Of a DNA stretch of 64,000 nucleotides, positions 13,426 to 64,000 are shown piece by piece. A program made the position numbers and the translations under genes. Origin of the DNA: Pseudomonas sp. A-1 (GTDB lineage Bacteria > Pseudomonadota > Gammaproteobacteria > Pseudomonadales > Pseudomonadaceae); contig NZ_SSTC01000002.1 in the NCBI RefSeq assembly GCF_004801855.1, positions 1 to 64,000 of the forward strand, read 5' to 3'. The notes under the pieces were generated by a model. The model did no database searches, was not told the DNA's origin, and saw only the letters and a program-made list of their open reading frames with translations. Position 1 is the stretch's first letter; every line of letters begins with the position of its first letter.

Positions 13426-13611
13426 TCAGGGCAACAGGCTGGGCCAGATGCCGATGTTCGGTGGCAGCGGGCAGTGGTGGACATGGTCGCCGGTACACCC
13501 CTGTGCGAGCGGACCGCTGGCCGCGCTCTGGGCCTGGCCGCCGGCGACAAGGGCGACCCCCACGATCATGGCACCCAGCAGCCAGGGATAGGCATCAACC
13601 TTGACCTTCAT
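13426..13611 (-). CDS. Small exported or membrane-anchored protein
   Basis: This 61-aa protein has one N-terminal hydrophobic helix (YPWLLGAMIVGVALVAGG) followed by a short periplasmic-looking tail with two cysteines (GCTGDHVHHCPLP). GAAGGGG lies upstream of its ATG. It stops six bases before the patatin start, which suggests an operon. I do not recognise a family. Confidence 0.5.
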   Translation of the reverse strand: MKVKVDAYPWLLGAMIVGVALVAGGQAQSAASGPLAQGCTGDHVHHCPLPPNIGIWPSLLP

Positions 13612-55404: not shown

Positions 55405-55707
55405 ATGCGGTGGAGATCGCGGCATTACGACTGCGAGCAGCAGCTCACGCTGGACCTGACGGTTGTCGAGGTCGCGCGAGTATCGACCACCTGCGCATCT
55501 GGAACGCCGATCACCATCAACGGCGTGACCAGGAGCGCTGGCGAGTGGGCCGAGCTGCGCGGGCTGAAGTGGCAGACGGTGAAGATGCGCAGGATGAGGG
55601 GCGACAACTGGCGGGACGCGCTGGATCCGGAGCGTCCACGAGGTCTGTGGATGCAGGGGTGGATCCTCAGCAGCAAGCCTGGGCAGGAGGTCAGGGCAGG
55701 GCGTTGA
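55405..55707 (+). CDS. Phage protein with intron-nuclease-repeat/AP2-like DNA-binding motif
   Basis: The 100-aa protein contains ITINGVTRSAGEWAELRGLK, followed by a TVKMRRMRGDNW helix, as in small DNA-binding repeats of homing nucleases. Its place between replication and lysis genes is where late antiterminators usually lie. Function inferred only. Confidence 0.6.
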   Translation: MRWRSRHYDCEQQLTLDLTVVEVARVSTTCASGTPITINGVTRSAGEWAELRGLKWQTVKMRRMRGDNWRDALDPERPRGLWMQGWILSSKPGQEVRAGR

Positions 55708-55732
55708 CCGGCTGGGCCAGTCACATAGCGTC
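55704..55732 (+). promoter_or_regulatory. Repeated late-region motif, copy 1
   Basis: TTG (55704) then ten bases and CCAGTCACATAGCGTC (55717-55732). It precedes the holin by 34 bases. Confidence 0.65.
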
Positions 55733-55766
55733 GCCGGCACCTCATCACTGGACAGGTGCACGAAGA

Positions 55767-56024
55767 ATGGCGGCCCAGCACACGCACACGGAACTCGCGG
55801 CGGAAGTGGTCGGAGCCTCGCTTGGTCAGAAGGCGACGATGGCCGGCGCGGCCACCGGCCTGGTCGGCTGGCTGGCGCAGGTGAACTGGATCGGAATTGC
55901 TGGCGTGGTGATTGCCGCACTGGGCCTGGCGGCGAACATCTACTTCCAGATTCGGCGAGATCGCCGTGAATCCGCCGAGAGCACGGCGCGCATCGAGGCG
56001 CTCAAGGAGCGGTGCGAGCCATGA
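55767..56024 (+). CDS. Holin
   Basis: The 85-aa protein has a soluble head, two closely spaced hydrophobic stretches (ATMAGAATGLVGWLAQV, WIGIAGVVIAALGLAANIYF) and a basic tail, as in HP1/P2-type holins. It would permeabilise the inner membrane. Its stop overlaps the lysozyme start. Confidence 0.82.
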   Translation: MAAQHTHTELAAEVVGASLGQKATMAGAATGLVGWLAQVNWIGIAGVVIAALGLAANIYFQIRRDRRESAESTARIEALKERCEP

Positions 56025-56542
56025 GCCGGACACGTCAGGCTGTTGCGGTGCTCACACTGAGCGCGGCTGGCTTCCTTGGCTGGGTGGCTGGCGAGGGCCT
56101 GGTGCTGACGCCGCACATACCGACCCAGGGCGACGTGCCGACCATCGGCGCCGGCAGCACCCGCTACGAGGACGGCACGCCGGTGCGGCTGACGGACCCG
56201 CCGATCACCCGCGAGCGCGCCCTGCAGCTGGCGCGCAATCTTCACAGCGAGGAGGAGGAGCGTTTCCGGGCCTCGCTGCCCGGGGTGTCGCTGCACCAGG
56301 AGGAATACGACCTCTACCTCGACTTCAGCGGCCAGTTCGGCATCGGCAACTGGCGCAGCTCGAGCATGCGCCGGTACCTGCTGGTCGGGGAGTACCGGCA
56401 GGCGTGCGAGGCGCTGTTGCGCTGGCGCCGCCAAGCCGGACGCGACTGCAGCCTGCCGCAGAACTGGGGGCCGAAGGGCTGCAGGGGCGTGTGGACCCGG
56501 CAGCAGGAACGGCACCGCAAGTGCCTGGAGGCACAGCGATGA
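56021..56542 (+). CDS. Phage lysozyme (GH24), probable SAR endolysin
   Basis: The 173-aa protein has an N-terminal weakly hydrophobic helix (AVAVLTLSAAGFLGWVAG) suitable as signal-anchor-release sequence, directly followed by the GH24 active site EGLVLTPHIPTQGDVPTIGAG with Glu and the Thr of the triad. It cleaves peptidoglycan. Confidence 0.9.
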   Translation: MSRTRQAVAVLTLSAAGFLGWVAGEGLVLTPHIPTQGDVPTIGAGSTRYEDGTPVRLTDPPITRERALQLARNLHSEEEERFRASLPGVSLHQEEYDLYLDFSGQFGIGNWRSSSMRRYLLVGEYRQACEALLRWRRQAGRDCSLPQNWGPKGCRGVWTRQQERHRKCLEAQR

Positions 56543-57048
56543 TCAGCACGCGCGCTGTCACCTTCGTCGGTGGCGCCTGCTTGGCCACTGGCCTGCTGCT
56601 GGGGATGACCCTGCAGGGCTGGCGGCTCGGTGCGGAGCTGGCCGAGCAGGGAGAGCAGCATTCCAGCCAGTTGCAGCGCATAGCCGAGGAACACGCGGCC
56701 GCCATCGCCGGCCAGCAGCAGGCCCGCCAGGCGCTGGAGGAGCGCCTGCACGTCCTGGACACGAACACCACCAAGGAGCTATCCGATGCCCTCGCTGAGA
56801 ATGAACGCCTGCGCCGCCTCTATTCTGCTGCTGACGATGAGCGTCGCCGGTTGCGCATCGAGGTCCGAGTCGCCCAGGCCGACGCCGTTGTGTCAGCGGC
56901 CGCCGGCGCCGGCAGCATGGGCGATGCAGCCCGCCTCGAACTCAGTGAGCGAGCTGGACAGTCTGTTTGGGATATCCGGGCAGGAATGATCAGCGACCAG
57001 CAGAAGTTGGCCTACCTGCAGCAGTGGGCCAGGGAATTGATGAAGTAG
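56539..57048 (+). CDS. Rz: Rz-like inner-membrane spanin
   Basis: The 169-aa protein has one N-terminal membrane helix (FVGGACLATGLLLGMTL) and a long periplasmic coiled coil. It joins Rz1 to fuse the membranes in the last step of lysis. Confidence 0.85.
   Translation: MISTRAVTFVGGACLATGLLLGMTLQGWRLGAELAEQGEQHSSQLQRIAEEHAAAIAGQQQARQALEERLHVLDTNTTKELSDALAENERLRRLYSAADDERRRLRIEVRVAQADAVVSAAAGAGSMGDAARLELSERAGQSVWDIRAGMISDQQKLAYLQQWARELMK
56786..56989 (+). CDS. Rz1: Rz1-like outer-membrane spanin lipoprotein, nested in Rz
   Basis: The 67-aa product has a lipoprotein signal with lipobox SVAGC and a Pro-rich mature part (SPRPTPLCQRPPAP). It lies wholly inside Rz in another frame, the usual layout of embedded spanin pairs. 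Confidence 0.85.
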   Translation: MPSLRMNACAASILLLTMSVAGCASRSESPRPTPLCQRPPAPAAWAMQPASNSVSELDSLFGISGQE

Positions 57049-57054
57049 AACAGA

Positions 57055-57075
57055 CCCCGCCTCGGCGGGGTTTTT
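57055..57075 (+). terminator. Terminator after the lysis cassette
   Basis: CCCCGCC and GGCGGGG form a seven-base stem followed by TTTTT, five bases after the Rz stop. Confidence 0.88.
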
Positions 57076-57083
57076 CATGCCCG

Positions 57084-57112
57084 TTGCCTGTCGGTGCCAG
57101 TCACATAGCGTC
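57084..57112 (+). promoter_or_regulatory. Repeated late-region motif, copy 2
   Basis: TTG (57084), ten bases, then CCAGTCACATAGCGTC (57097-57112). It is just after the terminator and 33 bases before the next start. Confidence 0.68.
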
Positions 57113-57145
57113 GATGGCTCAACTACCGCGACTGCAGGAGCAGCC

Positions 57146-57403
57146 ATGAGTATCGACAAGATCAACGACGACACCTTCCTCTCCGTTACCGAGGCCATGG
57201 GGCTGGCAGGCGAGGCCCTGGAGAAAGGCGACGCCGACCTGCTGCTGGTCATCAGCCTGGCCGGTGAGCGCGAGAGCGCTGTACTCGGTGGCCGGGTGGA
57301 CACTGCGCAGGTGGAGCGCGTGGAGCAGCTTCTGGTCGAGCTCAAGGCGCGTGCCCGGGCCGAGGGCGAGGGTGATCACGTCCTGCATGTGTGGCGGGGC
57401 TGA
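57146..57403 (+). CDS. Small phage protein of unknown function (85 aa)
   Basis: The soluble product (SVTEAMGLAGEALEKGDADL) has GGAG before ATG 57146. It may be the first gene of the packaging block. Confidence 0.65.
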   Translation: MSIDKINDDTFLSVTEAMGLAGEALEKGDADLLLVISLAGERESAVLGGRVDTAQVERVEQLLVELKARARAEGEGDHVLHVWRG

Positions 57404-57434
57404 GGTAGGCCGGGTATGGCTGAAGAGGTGACGC

Positions 57435-58061
57435 ATGGCAGGCGGTGAGCGCAAGCAGATCGACTGGGAGGCGGTTGAGCGGGATTACCGAGTTGGCCAG
57501 CTGTCTCTGCGCGCCTTGGCGGCCAAGCACGGCACCACCCCAGGCGCGATCAGCAAGAAAGCCAAGAAGGAGGGGTGGACTCAGGATGCCAGCCAGGAGG
57601 TGCGTGAGCGGACCCGTGCGGCGCTGATCAAGGCGCCGGCGGCCGAGCAGGAAACACGGGATGGAAACGCTGTTTCCTCGGCTGGAAACGCCCCCACGCG
57701 GGAAGACATCGAGGTGGCCGTCCAGACCAATCTGGCGGTCATCAGCCGGCACCGGAAGGACATCGGCCATGGGCACCGGCTGGTCGGCCTGCTGTTCTCG
57801 CAGCTGGAGGAGGCGGCGCGGCATCGCGAAGAGATCGAGGACGAGATCGAGCGGGAGTGCTCCGGTGACGAAACCACCGCGCGGCGCACCCGCATGCTCA
57901 AGGCCGTGAGCCTGCCGTCGCATGCGGGCGTGATCCGCGACCTGTCGACCGCACTGAAGAACCTGATCCCGCTGGAGCGCCAGGCCTACAACCTCGACGA
58001 GGTGTCGAGCGAGGAGAGCTTCGAGGAGCGGCTGGCGCGGCTGGTGGGTGACAGCCAGTAG
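57435..58061 (+). CDS. Terminase small subunit-like protein
   Basis: The 208-aa protein has an N-terminal HTH (LSLRALAAKHGTTPGAISKK) followed by helical regions. The domain is typical of small terminase subunits that bind pac/cos DNA, and the large subunit follows three genes later. Confidence 0.78.
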   Translation: MAGGERKQIDWEAVERDYRVGQLSLRALAAKHGTTPGAISKKAKKEGWTQDASQEVRERTRAALIKAPAAEQETRDGNAVSSAGNAPTREDIEVAVQTNLAVISRHRKDIGHGHRLVGLLFSQLEEAARHREEIEDEIERECSGDETTARRTRMLKAVSLPSHAGVIRDLSTALKNLIPLERQAYNLDEVSSEESFEERLARLVGDSQ

Positions 58062-58067
58062 ATGGGG

Positions 58068-58096
58068 TTGCGGCCGCTCGCCAGTCACATAGCCTG
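58068..58096 (+). promoter_or_regulatory. Repeated late-region motif, copy 3
   Basis: TTG (58068), ten bases, then CCAGTCACATAGCCTG (58081-58096). It is 26 bases before the Gp49-like gene. Confidence 0.62.
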
Positions 58097-58122
58097 CCGG
58101 GCTCCAACCACTGGAGATCCCC

Positions 58123-58707
58123 ATGAACGAGAAGATCATCCACGCAATCAGCGCGCTCGGCTACACCGCCAAGGATCTGCTGAGCATTACCCGGCGCGAC
58201 GACCAAGCCACCTCCACCGCGCACAAGGTGCTGAAGGTGATCGACTCCCTGCTGGACAGCCTCGGCGAAGCATCCCCTACGCAGTCAGCGCGACTGGCTG
58301 ACGAGGCCATGAGCGTGGTGAACATCGCTGGCGGCTCGGCAGCTGCCCGCGAGGCCGAGCAGCGCGCCCTGGAGGCAAGCTTTGCCGCGCCGAGCGTCAC
58401 CCAAGACCGCATCAACGAGCTGCTGGCGCGCGTGACCTACCGCTACGAGCACCCGGAGGGCGCCACCGCAACCTTCGCCCACGCCTTCCTTGATGACGAG
58501 TTCTACCTGGCCACCGGCTTCTCCGCGTGCGTCAGCCCGGAGAACTACAACCAGGCCATCGGCGAGAAATACGCCGGCCGCAATGCGTTGGAGAAGGCCA
58601 CCGGAAAGCTGTGGGAGCTGGAGGGCTACGCCCTGTTCCAGCGCCTGCGTGATCCGCGTTGCAGCGGCAGTACCTGCGGCCCAGTTACCACCCTGGAGGC
58701 ACGCTAA
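58123..58707 (+). CDS. Gp49-family phage protein (N4 gp49/Sf6 gp66-like)
   Basis: The 194-aa protein ends in a domain with FAHAFLDDEFYLATGFSACV, NYNQAIGEKYAGRNALEKAT and LWELEGYALFQRL, as in the Gp49 family of unknown function. Its stop overlaps the next start (TAATG). Confidence 0.75.
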   Translation: MNEKIIHAISALGYTAKDLLSITRRDDQATSTAHKVLKVIDSLLDSLGEASPTQSARLADEAMSVVNIAGGSAAAREAEQRALEASFAAPSVTQDRINELLARVTYRYEHPEGATATFAHAFLDDEFYLATGFSACVSPENYNQAIGEKYAGRNALEKATGKLWELEGYALFQRLRDPRCSGSTCGPVTTLEAR

Positions 58708-59132
58708 TGCGCCAGTACATCGGGACCAAAATCGTCAGTGCGCAGCCCATGACGCGCGCCGAGTACAACGCCTACCGCGGCTGGGAGCTGCCGGCCAACG
58801 AGGACGGCGCCGACGCCGGCTATCTGGTCGAGTACCACGACGGCGGCAAGCCCAACGACGACCGCCACGCCGGCTATATCAGCTGGTCGCCGGCCGAGCA
58901 GTTCGAGCGTGCCAACGTGGCCTTCGATGCCGCCGACGGCCAGGCGCCGCACCAGATCCGAGTGGTAGCCGAGCGCGCCGATCTGGACGCGCGAGCCGAG
59001 CGCCTGCGCAGCTTCATCATGGGCGACACCTTCGCCAGCCTGCCGCTGGATGAACAGCGCCGCTTGTATCGGCAGAACATGCTGATGGGCGAGCTGTCCA
59101 GCGTCCTCGGCGAGCGCATCGCCGCGTTCTGA
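58707..59132 (+). CDS. Phage protein of unknown function (141 aa)
   Basis: The N-terminal part is mixed, and the C-terminal part is a helical region (LDARAERLRSFIMGDTFASL, QNMLMGELSSVLGERI) like crAss001_48-type proteins. It precedes a terminator. Confidence 0.65.
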   Translation: MRQYIGTKIVSAQPMTRAEYNAYRGWELPANEDGADAGYLVEYHDGGKPNDDRHAGYISWSPAEQFERANVAFDAADGQAPHQIRVVAERADLDARAERLRSFIMGDTFASLPLDEQRRLYRQNMLMGELSSVLGERIAAF

Positions 59133-59158
59133 TCCTGACCGCGCCTTGGTCGCCCATT

Positions 59159-59184
59159 AGCCCGCCCCGTGCGGGCTTTTTTTC
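59159..59184 (+). terminator. Terminator before the terminase large subunit
   Basis: AGCCCGC and GCGGGCT flank a five-base loop and are followed by seven T residues, a strong intrinsic terminator. Confidence 0.88.
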
Positions 59185-59199
59185 GCCTGCGCGCAGGGC

Positions 59200-59228
59200 T
59201 TGCGCCGCCGCTCCAGTCACATAGCGTC
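59200..59228 (+). promoter_or_regulatory. Repeated late-region motif, copy 4
   Basis: TTG (59200), ten bases, then CCAGTCACATAGCGTC (59213-59228). It lies 16 bases after a terminator and 29 before the terminase start. Confidence 0.68.
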
Positions 59229-59257
59229 CGCCACATCGCAACGATTGTGGCCGCCCC

Positions 59258-60799
59258 GTGACCAACGCCGACATCCTGCTGCAGAAGCTGATCGAGGACG
59301 ACGAGCTCTACTGCTCGCGTAACCTCAAGATCCGCACGAAGGAAGGCAACATCGTCCCCTTCGAGTGGAACGACGCCCAGCGCCTGCTGCACGCCAAGCT
59401 CGAGGAGCAGCTGCAGCACTGTGGCTGGGTGCGGGCCCTGGTGCTCAAGGGCCGTCAGCAGGGCTGCTCGACCTACGTCGCGGCTCGTTTCTACAAGCGC
59501 ACCAGCATGCGCTTCGGCAAGCGGACGATGATCCTGACGCACCTGGACGCCGCCACGCAGAACCTGTTCGGGATGGCGAAGACCTACTACGAGCTGAGCG
59601 ATCCGGCGCTGCAGCCGGCGATCAAGGCCAACTCGGGTAACGAACTGTCGTTCGCCAAACTGCGCAGTGGCTACAAGGTGGCCACCGCGGGCTCGAAGAA
59701 CGCCGGGCGCTCCGACACCGTGCAGTACCTGCATGGCTCCGAGGTGGCGTTCTGGCCCAATGCCCAGCAGATCATGGCGGGGCTGGGCCAGACCGTGCCG
59801 CTGCTGCCGGGCAGCGAGATGATCCTCGAGACGACCGCCAACGGTCTGGGCAATCTGTTCCACAAGATGTGGACGCTGGCTGTCGCCGGTAAGTCCGACT
59901 TCATGCCGGTGTTCATCCCCTGGTTCGTGCAGCGCGAGTACCGCCGCGAGGTGCCTCCCGGCTTCGAGATGAGCGCCGAGGAGCAGGAGTACATGGCCAC
60001 CTTCGGGCTCGACCTCGAGCAGATGGCCTGGCGCCGCTCCAAGATCGACACCGACTTCACCGGCGACGAGGACTGGTTCAACCAGGAGTACCCGGCAACC
60101 CCCGACATGGCCTTCCTCAAGGTTGGCCACAAGCCGTTGATCAAGACCCTGCGGGTACAGCGCGCCCGCAAGCAGCGCATTGAGCACATGCAGCGTATCG
60201 GCGCCCATGTGGTCGGCCTTGACCCGGCCCGCGGCGGCGACACCTCGACTTTCATCCATCGCCAGGGCCGCGTGGCCTGGGGGCTGGAGCGCATCGACAT
60301 CGCAGACACCATGGCCGTCACCGGCCGCGCCGCGCGCCTGCTGCAGGACGACCGGACCATCCGGATGCTGTTTGTCGATATCGGCGGCTTGGGCGCCGGC
60401 ATCTACGACCGCCTGGTGGAGCTCGGCTTTGGTGAACGGGTGACCGCGGTCAACTTCGGCTCGAAGGCCACCGACGAGCGCAAGTACTTCAACAAGCGCG
60501 CCGAGATGTGGGGCGAGCTGGCCGAGTGGCTGCACGACGACATCACCCCCTGCATCCCCGACGACGACCAGCTGCACGGCGACCTGACCGCCGTCAGCGG
60601 CAACAAGTACAGCTCCAACGGCCAGCTGAAGCTCGAATCCAAGGAGAAGATCCGCGAGGAACTGGGGCGCTCACCGGACGACGGCGACGCCCTGGCGCTG
60701 ACCTTCGCCGAGCCGGTGGCGGCCGACGACACCTTCACCGAGGACTGGCGCACCAAGCTGCTGCGCAACCGGTCCCGCAAATCCGCGATGAGTGCCTGA
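59258..60799 (+). CDS. Terminase large subunit
   Basis: The 513-aa packaging motor has an ATPase half with ALVLKGRQQGCSTYVAARF and a nuclease half with VVGLDPARGGDTST, FVDIGGLGAGIYDRL and DDGDALALTF, which supply the RNase H-like acidic residues. It uses GTG at 59258. Confidence 0.9.
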   Translation: MTNADILLQKLIEDDELYCSRNLKIRTKEGNIVPFEWNDAQRLLHAKLEEQLQHCGWVRALVLKGRQQGCSTYVAARFYKRTSMRFGKRTMILTHLDAATQNLFGMAKTYYELSDPALQPAIKANSGNELSFAKLRSGYKVATAGSKNAGRSDTVQYLHGSEVAFWPNAQQIMAGLGQTVPLLPGSEMILETTANGLGNLFHKMWTLAVAGKSDFMPVFIPWFVQREYRREVPPGFEMSAEEQEYMATFGLDLEQMAWRRSKIDTDFTGDEDWFNQEYPATPDMAFLKVGHKPLIKTLRVQRARKQRIEHMQRIGAHVVGLDPARGGDTSTFIHRQGRVAWGLERIDIADTMAVTGRAARLLQDDRTIRMLFVDIGGLGAGIYDRLVELGFGERVTAVNFGSKATDERKYFNKRAEMWGELAEWLHDDITPCIPDDDQLHGDLTAVSGNKYSSNGQLKLESKEKIREELGRSPDDGDALALTFAEPVAADDTFTEDWRTKLLRNRSRKSAMSA

Positions 60800-60803
60800 C
60801 GAG

Positions 60804-62903
60804 ATGAGTCCGACCGCCGAAACCAACCGCACGGCCTACGAGAACTGGCAGCGCTACGAGTACGGGCGTATGCGTGGGCACCTGGACTACGTGAAGACCG
60901 CTCGCATCAACGAGGGCATGTACTTGGGCGGCGGCCTGCAGTGGAGCGCGGAAGATCTGCAGGCCCTGGCCGAGGCCGGCCGCCCGGCCTTCGAGTTCAA
61001 CCAGATCCTGCCGAAGATCAACGCCGCCCTCGGCTACCAGATCGCCAACCGCATGGACATCACCTTCCGCCCTCGCGGCGGGCAGGCCGATCAGGATCTG
61101 GCCAGCACCCTGTCCAAGCTGACCATGCAGATCGCCGACAACACCCAGCTGCACTGGAAGGAGTCGCAGGTCTTCGCCGACGGCCTGGTGCAGCAGCGCG
61201 GCTACTTCGACGTGCGGATCAGCTATGAGGACAGCCTGCTGGGCGAGGTGCACATCGACGCGCTCGACCCGCTGGACGTGATCCCCGACCCGGATGCCAA
61301 GAGCTACGACCCGGACAGCTGGGCCGACGTGATCGTGACCCGCTGGCTGACCCTCGACGAGATCGAGGCGCTGTACGGCACCGCCAAGCGCAACGAGGTG
61401 GACCAGACCAAGCCGGACGAGAGCGACTTCGGCGAGGACATGGGCGACGAGGCCCGCAACAAGTTCGGCGACAACAACAGCGGCTACAACGACCGCATGG
61501 GTGTGGCCACCCAGGCCGACGGCGAGCGGCGAGTGCGGGTGATCGATCGCCAGTTCTGGCGCATGGAGAAGGCCGAGGTGCTGATCACCCCGACCGGCGA
61601 CATCCGGGTGGTCGACAGCCTGAGCCCGGCTCGGGTCGCCGCCATGGAGGCCGCCGGCGCGATCCGCCAGAAGCGCCGTGTCCGCCGGGTGCGCTGGGTG
61701 GTCAGCACGCAGTGCGTGGTGCTGCACGATGACTGGTCGCCGTTCCAGCACTTCACGGTTGTGCCGTACTTCCCGTTTTTCCGCCGCGGCGTCACTCGCG
61801 GCTTGGTCGACAACGCCATCGGCCCGCAGCAGATGCTCAACAAGTCGCTGAGCCAGATGCTGCACATCATCAACACCACCGCCAACTCGGGCTGGATCAC
61901 CTGGGCGAACACCCTGGCCAACATGACCGAGGACGAACTGGAGGACCGTGGCGCCGAGACGGGGCTGCACATCAGCCTGAAGAAGGAGACTCCGACCGAG
62001 AAGATGCCGCGCAAGATCCAGCCGAACCAGGTACCGACCGGGCTGGACCGCATCATCGAGCGCTCCGCGGTGCTGCTGGAGCAGGCCACCGGCATCAACG
62101 ATGCCATGGTGGGCAACACCGGGCGCGAGGTTTCGGGCATCGCCATCCAGAGCCGCCAGCACGCCGCCCAGCAGCAGTTGGCCGTGCCGCTGGACAACCT
62201 GGCGCGCACCCGCAACCTGCTGGCCCGACGGATCCTCGACCTGATCCAGGGTTTCTACGATCAGCCGCGCATCGTCCGCATCGTCGAGACCGACGCCCGC
62301 GGCCGGGAGATGACCGAAGAGCTGGCGCTGAACTACCCGGCGGCCAACGGCCAGATCCTCAACGACCTGACCATCGGCGAGTACGACGTGGTGATCGCCG
62401 AGGTGCCGCTGCAGGTGACCTTCGAGAACAGCCAGTTCCTGCAGGCCATCGAGCTGGTCGACAAGGGCGCGCCGATCCCATGGCCGTTCGTGCTGCGCTA
62501 CTCGAACCTGGCCCACAAGCAGGAAATTATCGACGCGCTCGAGCAGCAGGCCCAGCAGCAGGCCGACCCGCTGGTCGAGGCCAAGGTGGCACTGACCCAG
62601 GCGCAGACGCAGAAGACCCTGGCCGAGAGCGTGAACAAGGCTGTCGAGTCGCAATACAGCGCGATGCAGGCGTCCGGGGTGATCGCCACCACTCCGGCGA
62701 CCGCGCCGCTGGCCGATGCGCTGCTCCGCTCGGCCGGCTACGTCGACCGCGACGCGGCGCCCATCGTGCCGGAGTACCAGGCCAACGTGCCGACCGCACC
62801 AGTGGCACCGGACGCACCGACCAATACCAATCCGTTGACCCCGGCCAACCCGGCCGTGGGCGTGGCTGCGGGTATCGAAACCCAGGCCATCGAACCTGTT
62901 TAA
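60804..62903 (+). CDS. Portal protein (P22 type)
   Basis: The 699-aa protein has the P22-portal pattern: a core with RPAFEFNQILPKINAALGYQ, a long barrel-like helix region, and REVSGIAIQSRQHAAQQQLA, then a Thr/Ala/Pro tail. It forms the DNA gate of the capsid vertex. ATG 60804 or GTG 60792 could start. Confidence 0.85.
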   Translation: MSPTAETNRTAYENWQRYEYGRMRGHLDYVKTARINEGMYLGGGLQWSAEDLQALAEAGRPAFEFNQILPKINAALGYQIANRMDITFRPRGGQADQDLASTLSKLTMQIADNTQLHWKESQVFADGLVQQRGYFDVRISYEDSLLGEVHIDALDPLDVIPDPDAKSYDPDSWADVIVTRWLTLDEIEALYGTAKRNEVDQTKPDESDFGEDMGDEARNKFGDNNSGYNDRMGVATQADGERRVRVIDRQFWRMEKAEVLITPTGDIRVVDSLSPARVAAMEAAGAIRQKRRVRRVRWVVSTQCVVLHDDWSPFQHFTVVPYFPFFRRGVTRGLVDNAIGPQQMLNKSLSQMLHIINTTANSGWITWANTLANMTEDELEDRGAETGLHISLKKETPTEKMPRKIQPNQVPTGLDRIIERSAVLLEQATGINDAMVGNTGREVSGIAIQSRQHAAQQQLAVPLDNLARTRNLLARRILDLIQGFYDQPRIVRIVETDARGREMTEELALNYPAANGQILNDLTIGEYDVVIAEVPLQVTFENSQFLQAIELVDKGAPIPWPFVLRYSNLAHKQEIIDALEQQAQQQADPLVEAKVALTQAQTQKTLAESVNKAVESQYSAMQASGVIATTPATAPLADALLRSAGYVDRDAAPIVPEYQANVPTAPVAPDAPTNTNPLTPANPAVGVAAGIETQAIEPV

Positions 62904-62919
62904 ACCCAAGGGGGCTCCC

Positions 62920-63822
62920 ATGCGCGACAACGACGACAACCTGGACACCGAACTGGACACCGATCTGCTGGACCGCGGCGATGAGGTCGGCGACCTGCCG
63001 CCGGAGGAAGACGAGCTGCCGCTGGACGACGAGGAGCGTGAAGAGAACGAGGGGGATGCAGCTGCGGAGGAAGAGCCGGCGCCGGCCAAGGGCAGCCGCA
63101 CCGTGCCGCATGCGCGCTTCAACGAGGTCAACGAGCAGCTGAAGCAGGAGCGTGCCGCCCGCCTGCAGCTGGAGGAGGAGCTGGCCCGCGCCCGCGGCGC
63201 CCAGCAGACCCAGCCGTCGGCTGCTGAGCAGAAGCCGCAGGAGAAACCGACCGAATTCGACTTCAAGGCTGCCCGCAAGCAGCTGCGCGAGGCGATCTAC
63301 GAGGGCGATGATGCCAAGGCCGAGCAGCTCGAGGAGGAGATCGAGCGGCAGACCGAGCTGCGCCAGACCCGCATCGCCGAGCAGCGCGCCCAGGAGCTAC
63401 TCGAGCAGCGCACCCGCGAGCAGCAGCAGAAGGCGATCAAGAACGAGGTGGAGACCGCCGTGGCGGCGGCCTATGCGAGCTACCCGTTCCTCGATGCCGC
63501 TGGCGAGCAGGCCAACCAGGACGCCATCGACGAGGTGATAGCGCTGCGGGATCTTTATATTTCCCGCGGCAAGTCGCCGGCTCAGGCCATCGCCGATGCC
63601 GTGGCCAAGGTCGGCCCGCGCTACGCTGAAGCCCCTGCTGCCAAGCCGGACGGCAAGGCGACCATCGAGCAGAACCTGGAACGCGAGCGGCGCATCCCGC
63701 CGACGATGCCCGGGGTCGGCGAGCGTGCCCGCAAGATCGACTACGCCAATCTCAGCGAGGACGAATTCGAGAGGCTGCCCGAGGCCGAGAAGCGCAAGGC
63801 TCGCGGCGATTTCGTGGGTTGA
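62920..63822 (+). CDS. Probable capsid scaffolding protein
   Basis: The 300-aa protein is very acidic and helical with a coiled coil (about 65-170) and lies directly after the portal and before the expected major capsid gene, as scaffolds do in P22-like phages. A basic Lys/Arg C-terminus (LPEAEKRKARGDF) fits capsid binding. The assignment is positional. Confidence 0.65.
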   Translation: MRDNDDNLDTELDTDLLDRGDEVGDLPPEEDELPLDDEEREENEGDAAAEEEPAPAKGSRTVPHARFNEVNEQLKQERAARLQLEEELARARGAQQTQPSAAEQKPQEKPTEFDFKAARKQLREAIYEGDDAKAEQLEEEIERQTELRQTRIAEQRAQELLEQRTREQQQKAIKNEVETAVAAAYASYPFLDAAGEQANQDAIDEVIALRDLYISRGKSPAQAIADAVAKVGPRYAEAPAAKPDGKATIEQNLERERRIPPTMPGVGERARKIDYANLSEDEFERLPEAEKRKARGDFVG

Positions 63823-63847
63823 CGGCCCATTCCAGTCACATAGCGTT
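63819..63847 (+). promoter_or_regulatory. Repeated late-region motif, copy 5
   Basis: TTG (63819), ten bases, then CCAGTCACATAGCGTT (63832-63847), just past the scaffold stop in an interval without a gene up to the window edge. Confidence 0.65.
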
Positions 63848-63877
63848 CGCCCCGTAGCTTCCTCAGCTGCATGACCG

Positions 63878-63934
63878 CCGGCCTTCGGGCCGGTGCGTCA
63901 CCGGGCTTCGGCCCTCGCTCACCGAGTCACGGTG
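63878..63934 (+). other. Cluster of three hairpins, two with UUCG loops
   Basis: CCGGCC-TTCG-GGCCGG (63878-63893), GGGC-TTCG-GCCC (63903-63914) and CACCG-AGTCA-CGGTG (63920-63934) follow the fifth motif copy with no open frame between them. cUUCGg loops are very stable RNA folds, so a structured leader or processed RNA is likely. Confidence 0.5.
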
Positions 63935-64000
63935 TCCTCGCCTGCAGGGCGTAAAGCTGCGCCGGCCCCGAGAGCCTGAATCTCGTCTTCGCCTGGGTGG

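Follow-up and report, generated by a model that had tools for sequence, protein, structure and literature searches.

P2 Ogr and P4 Delta are small phage activators, each of which switches on several late operons by way of a repeated DNA element; the Ogr sites lie upstream of the promoter (at about −55), and Ogr itself is a zinc-binding protein with several cysteines. T4 MotA is a phage activator that works with a sigma-70 −10 element at many middle promoters, the MotA box replacing the −35 element at about −30. The antiterminators Q, AlpA and GafZ bind within the promoter spacer (PMC6606751, PMC7969949, PMC9371919, PMC11150451), and the AlpA-binding element (ABE) has the sequence GGGACG-N5-GGTA (PMC7969949). 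Here, we describe a repeated motif in a Pseudomonas prophage whose copies look like late promoters: a TTG in the −35 position is followed by the box CCAGTCACA and by a weak −10 element (TAGC[C/G]T). The probable reader of these copies is a small DNA-binding protein of an undescribed family, whose gene lies immediately upstream; this assignment is very likely. The core sequence was not found in a full-text literature search.

Copies of the motif ahead of the late genes

The window, that is, the whole stretch of 64,000 nucleotides that was analysed, contains five exact copies of TTG-N10-CCAGTCACATAGC, all on the + strand, at positions 55704, 57084, 58068, 59200 and 63819, exactly as given in the preliminary description. 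The only other match with up to three mismatches is a three-mismatch site at 13525, and the shuffled window yields a mean of 0.30 matches at this tolerance (maximum 2). A sixth copy, TTGCCGCCACCGCCGAGTCACATAGCCT, lies on the same contig 17 kb past the window (C166:80673-80700); its core differs at one base, and the spacing of its TTG is unchanged. The repeated unit proved to be longer than first stated: base 28 is T in all copies, base 27 is either G or C, and the 3′ end forms a −10-like TAGC[C/G]T.

All of these putative promoters precede late genes. Copy 1 (TTG..CCAGTCACA..TAGCGT; 55704-55731) is followed by the lysis genes (55767-57048), namely, a holin (55767-56024), an endolysin (to 56542) and a spanin-like gene (to 57048), the former two being called from PHROG matches and the latter from its position and sequence. 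Copy 2 (57084-57111) comes immediately after a terminator-like hairpin (57059-57071, + strand) and heads the small-terminase unit, consisting of an 85-aa ORF (57146-57403) and the small terminase gene itself (57435-58061), whereas copy 3 (58068-58095) precedes a two-gene unit, 58123-58707 (gp49/66-like) and 58707-59132. Copy 4 (59200-59227) again has a strong terminator-like hairpin immediately 5′ to it (59159-59177, + strand), and precedes the large terminase, portal and scaffold-like genes (59258-63822). Copy 5 (63819-63846) lies ~208 nt 5′ of the major head protein gene, which begins outside the window at C166:64053, and the sixth copy precedes a 499-aa late gene. The two terminators reported directly before copies correspond to these terminator-like hairpins, and the promoter role that had been proposed for the motif is judged likely to be right; its promoter-like layout is conserved in relatives. 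The start codons, by contrast, had been placed 26-34 bases further on: the distances from the last base of the motif are in fact 37, 36, 29 and 32 nt for copies 1-4, respectively, and ~208 nt for copy 5. Nor do all copies sit in a gap, as had been supposed, given that the TTG of copies 1 and 5 overlaps the TGA stop codon of the preceding gene. The ~200-nt leader of the major head gene (63853-64000 and on to C166:64053) carries GC-rich hairpins, and it folds barely better than shuffled sequences (z −1.43).

Anatomy of the motif across relatives

An exact scan of IMG/VR returned 36 stretches, ~27 of which share this layout before a start codon, often directly after a terminator hairpin; these first collection searches demanded part of the motif, and ~9 loci of the exact scan (e.g. 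L016, L018, L022, L025, L028, L033 and L034), together with L050 and L053, appear to be chance matches and were excluded from the logo. With the relaxed pattern CAGTCACANANNNT, in which the TTG is not required, 72 sites were found in 15 of these viral records (2-8 per record), confined to a single strand within each record, and the reversed control gave none. The preliminary description would have regarded the motif as a mere repeat had transcript 5′ ends never fallen near the copies and had its spacing not been kept in relatives; the layout is conserved, and the motif persists within unrelated flanks, which excludes that reading. Within one mismatch, it was not found in the first 50 kb of either Acidovorax AP1 or KPP25, which are relatives by portal protein.

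The logo compiled from 93 non-redundant sites reads TTG[C/A]-N9-t[C/T]CAGTCACATAgc[C/G]T. AG, CACA and the last T are invariant in this set, although the last T belonged to the definition of the set; it is present in 103 of the 104 sites having at most one box mismatch. In sigma-70 terms, the logo corresponds to TTGNNN-N16-TAGC[C/G]T, with the box at about −21 to −13. Compared with TATAAT, the hexamer TAGC[C/G]T keeps T(−12), A(−11) and T(−7) and none of the other positions, and a plain consensus scan of the region gives no match. The downstream box had been described as unlike a sigma-70 −10; it is more accurately a box joined to a putative degenerate −10 that retains A(−11) and T(−7). As read from the sequence, then, a weak −10-like hexamer is fused to the box, and an altered sigma factor is not needed. 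Around the expected transcription start, ~7 nt downstream of the hexamer, there is a weak preference for C/A.

The distance from the box to the −10 is constant in all 93 sites, whereas the TTG, in 46 sites gathered without requiring it, lies 16 bp from the −10 in 32 cases and 17 bp in 8, in keeping with the 16-18 bp expected of a sigma-70 −35 element. The 17-bp cases are mostly divergent copies that point away from an adjacent copy. The ten-base spacer is not strictly invariant: relatives conserve the layout, but a minority of copies have TTG-N11. The two contacts proposed at the outset, a −35-like TTG and a downstream box, are both recognizable, but the TTG-N11 copies fit a sigma factor at the TTG rather than the rigid two-site footprint of one regulator: with the box locked to the −10 and the TTG allowed 1 bp of play, sigma would read the TTG and another protein the box. 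Terminator-like hairpins occur within 60 nt upstream of 18 of the 93 sites, compared with 0.7 in shuffled sequences, and downstream of 2 of 92.

Several relatives carry back-to-back copies with overlapping −35 regions (L113:3017/3022, L118:2993/2998, L101:3079/3075 and others), in which the second copy faces an oppositely read gene; TTGCAA is its own reverse complement. At one site that recurs in several phages (L044:1221, L076 and L082), a terminator hairpin, AGCCTGCTTACGAGCGGGCT followed by a T run, overlaps the −10. Because of this overlap, the predicted start falls within the loop of the hairpin, and RNA begun at this promoter would be without the 5′ arm and would escape the terminator. 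A promoter for a T7-like polymerase, which GTCACATAG faintly resembles, was set aside, as the TTG keeps sigma-70 spacing with its 16/17-bp play.

A candidate regulator encoded at 55405-55707

The ORF at 55405-55707 (+ strand), which ends at copy 1, encodes a 100-aa protein that is likely to be the regulator of the motif. A phage regulator gene co-occurring with the motif had been anticipated, and homologs of this ORF are indeed present in 14 of the 15 motif-bearing viral records (E 1e-19 to 1e-58), the remaining record being a 31-kb fragment; by coordinates, they lie upstream of every motif site on their strand. A search of IMG/VR with the protein family only gave 33 loci, 32 of which have the motif downstream on the same strand; in the exception, L117, a box is found upstream of the homolog gene itself. 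The family has no match in Pfam or NCBIfam, no relative in the PDB by sequence and none among 50,697 phage records (INPHARED) or 72,556 plasmid records, and a fold search of the PDB gave nothing useful. Of 398 genomes from the host's family, 18 encode a member, and a class-wide sample of 369 yielded the genome of origin only. A close prophage is present in Pseudomonas sagittaria JCM 18195, and prophage similarity suggests that the host is a Pseudomonas near P. sagittaria.

The AlphaFold2 model consists of a β-hairpin (residues 35-44) and a helix-turn-helix (45-51 and 56-64; pLDDT about 90) flanked by disordered ends, with KWQTVKMRR as the predicted recognition helix. Foldseek matches this model to viral models of phage HNH and GIY-YIG endonucleases and of PVL ORF-50-like proteins (best E 8e-4), and 8 of 10 family members show a weak match to PHROG 3377 (HNH) that is restricted to the DNA-binding part. 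The 100-aa protein contains no HNH nuclease motif and has no Pfam match, and one cysteine is conserved in 32 aligned family members. It was also considered whether the protein might be an alternative sigma factor; this is unneeded, and the protein, besides lacking any match to sigma factors, falls short of the size required.

Some homologs stand alone (L047:14981-15255, L117, L135, L136, L138 and L140); each of their genes is closely preceded by a CAGTCACA-type box that lacks a TTG at the usual distance. The first of these, equivalent to contig C89:34981-35255 of G000, adjoins an apparent tRNA 3′ end, as might be expected at the boundary of a satellite or other integrated element. A 171-aa frame in L140 / L152 (G047:C57:26807-27190) contains two tandem copies of the DNA-binding domain; the helix of the first domain is altered (LSWAAVWTRR), and a CCAGTCACATAGCGT box precedes the frame. 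The lone homologs that have a box before their own gene may sit in elements that exploit a helper phage's late switch.

Covariation of the recognition helix with the box

Proteins with WQT in the recognition helix are associated with AGTCACA (58 sites across 15 records, alongside 3 AGCCACA strays), those with WNT with AGCCACA (31 of 31 sites in 4 records) and those with WDT (L143 and L144) with AGTGACA; additionally, a WST protein (L135) is paired with AGCCACA and one WTT protein (L151) with a TC box. In the tree, the WNT proteins form a clade inside WQT (support 100/99), and L135 is placed elsewhere with moderate support. The four WNT phages are near-copies and were counted as one event, which leaves ~3 independent helix-box switches. 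By this covariation, one helix residue is linked to box positions 5-6. It suggests direct recognition and is the best evidence that the protein would bind the box itself.

Proposed mechanism and alternatives

We favour, with a probability of roughly 0.7, the explanation that a temperate-phage family uses the motif as its common late promoter, at which the 55405-55707 protein binds the box in the spacer and helps sigma-70 polymerase at a weak −10. The helix-turn-helix protein, made with the early genes, would bind CCAGTCACA directly against the −10 and, once bound, would help the host sigma-70 RNA polymerase at promoters whose own −10 (TAGC[C/G]T) is weak; one early protein could, in this way, turn on five or six late operons for lysis, packaging, head and tail. 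What the sequence itself shows is an arrangement like that of a promoter, the association of protein with motif and the covariation of recognition helix and box; we infer binding by the protein, activation of initiation and the timing. Against this explanation, a protein bound so close to the −10 might obstruct polymerase instead, the independent helix-box switches number only ~3, and the boxes of the lone family members have no TTG, so not every box is a promoter of this kind.

The same protein, bound to the same spacer box, might instead load on to a polymerase paused just downstream and carry it through the terminators of the late operons, as processive antiterminators of the Q/AlpA/GafZ type do. 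The binding element is located between −35 and −10, as for phage 21 Q, AlpA and GafZ, and, as with lambda Q, the gene comes last among the early genes, directly ahead of a late promoter, but a −10-like pause element is not enriched in the first transcribed bases (24 of 93 sites, versus 30 of 93 neighbouring windows). Moreover, the leaders of copies 1-4, at 29-37 nt, leave no room before the first gene, and no terminator was found there; terminators are instead followed by a fresh copy of the promoter, with 5-9 copies per phage, and the protein, for which no similarity to 21Q or AlpA was detected, is much smaller than either. Given the short leaders, and the absence of both a terminator and an enriched pause element, an activator between −35 and −10 is favoured, and antitermination is considered unlikely. 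Thus, of the agents first suggested (an activator, an altered sigma or an antiterminator), the second is unneeded, and the third has less support than activation.

Repression is a much poorer candidate: a box that abuts the −10 would let the protein cover the −10 region of otherwise constitutive late promoters, and the boxes just upstream of the lone family members' own genes are such as an autorepressor might have; however, because the 55405 gene is read with the early lytic genes, and not from the CI side, this is very unlikely. Additionally, there is no good −10 (no promoter-like match in the region), which makes a strong unaided promoter improbable. We consider it least probable of all that the motif is not a promoter, but rather a DNA site for packaging, replication or recombination, or an RNA element, that co-occurs with the gene through shared descent only. 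One-strand repeats across the late region would be consistent with such a site, whereas a TTG at sigma-70 spacing with 16/17-bp play, the placement directly after terminators, the back-to-back pairs that each face their own gene and the covariation with the neighbouring gene's recognition helix all argue for a promoter.

If activation from the spacer is indeed the mechanism, this would be the late-gene switch of a Pseudomonadaceae temperate-phage family for which INPHARED phage records hold no regulator homolog, and an undescribed regulator family would be paired with its DNA site, with natural variants of both. The system is simple enough to be assayed with a reporter and one gene, and it could serve as an orthogonal promoter set. 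It also raises the question of how a protein lodged between −35 and −10 activates polymerase rather than blocking it.

Comparison with known systems

Lambdoid Q (phage 21 Q and lambda Q; PMC6606751) resembles the present system in that a phage protein is encoded just before a late promoter, sigma-70 polymerase is used and the element falls between −35 and −10, as seen when the position of the box in the logo is compared with PMC6606751. There, however, a single promoter is served, and phage 21 has 6-bp direct repeats, whereas here there are many copies with a single 9-bp box, no enriched pause element (93 sites), no leader terminator before the late genes (copies 1-4) and an unrelated 100-aa protein. 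AlpA of Pseudomonas aeruginosa (PMC7969949, PMC9371919) shares the host group, the presence of several target promoters and a spacer element read by a helix-turn-helix, but it is a ring-forming antiterminator built of several helices, and the terminator that it passes lies downstream of its promoter; the ABE sequence, GGGACG-N5-GGTA, is absent from the logo, in which the invariant box is CAGTCACA.

In its predicted fold, the 55405 protein resembles the DNA-binding module of phage HNH and GIY-YIG homing endonucleases, as well as PVL ORF-50-like proteins, all as viral models; unlike the homing endonucleases, it has no nuclease domain and stands alone beside its proposed target promoters. It is conceivable, and we put this forward tentatively, that it represents a new class of phage late regulator, in which the DNA-reading module of a homing endonuclease serves as a stand-alone activator, docked in the spacer against the −10, that drives many promoters and has a readable natural specificity code (residue 57 being Q with TC, N with CC and D with TG at box positions 5-6). 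T4 MotA is likewise a phage activator that acts with a sigma-70 −10 at many promoters, although here the TTG is retained and the box directly adjoins the −10. P2 Ogr differs in that the present box lies in the spacer and the present family has only one conserved cysteine, in place of the several zinc-binding cysteines that define Ogr. What P2 Ogr and P4 Delta do share with it is a small protein, several late operons and a repeated element, and the satellite-borne homolog is a possible parallel.
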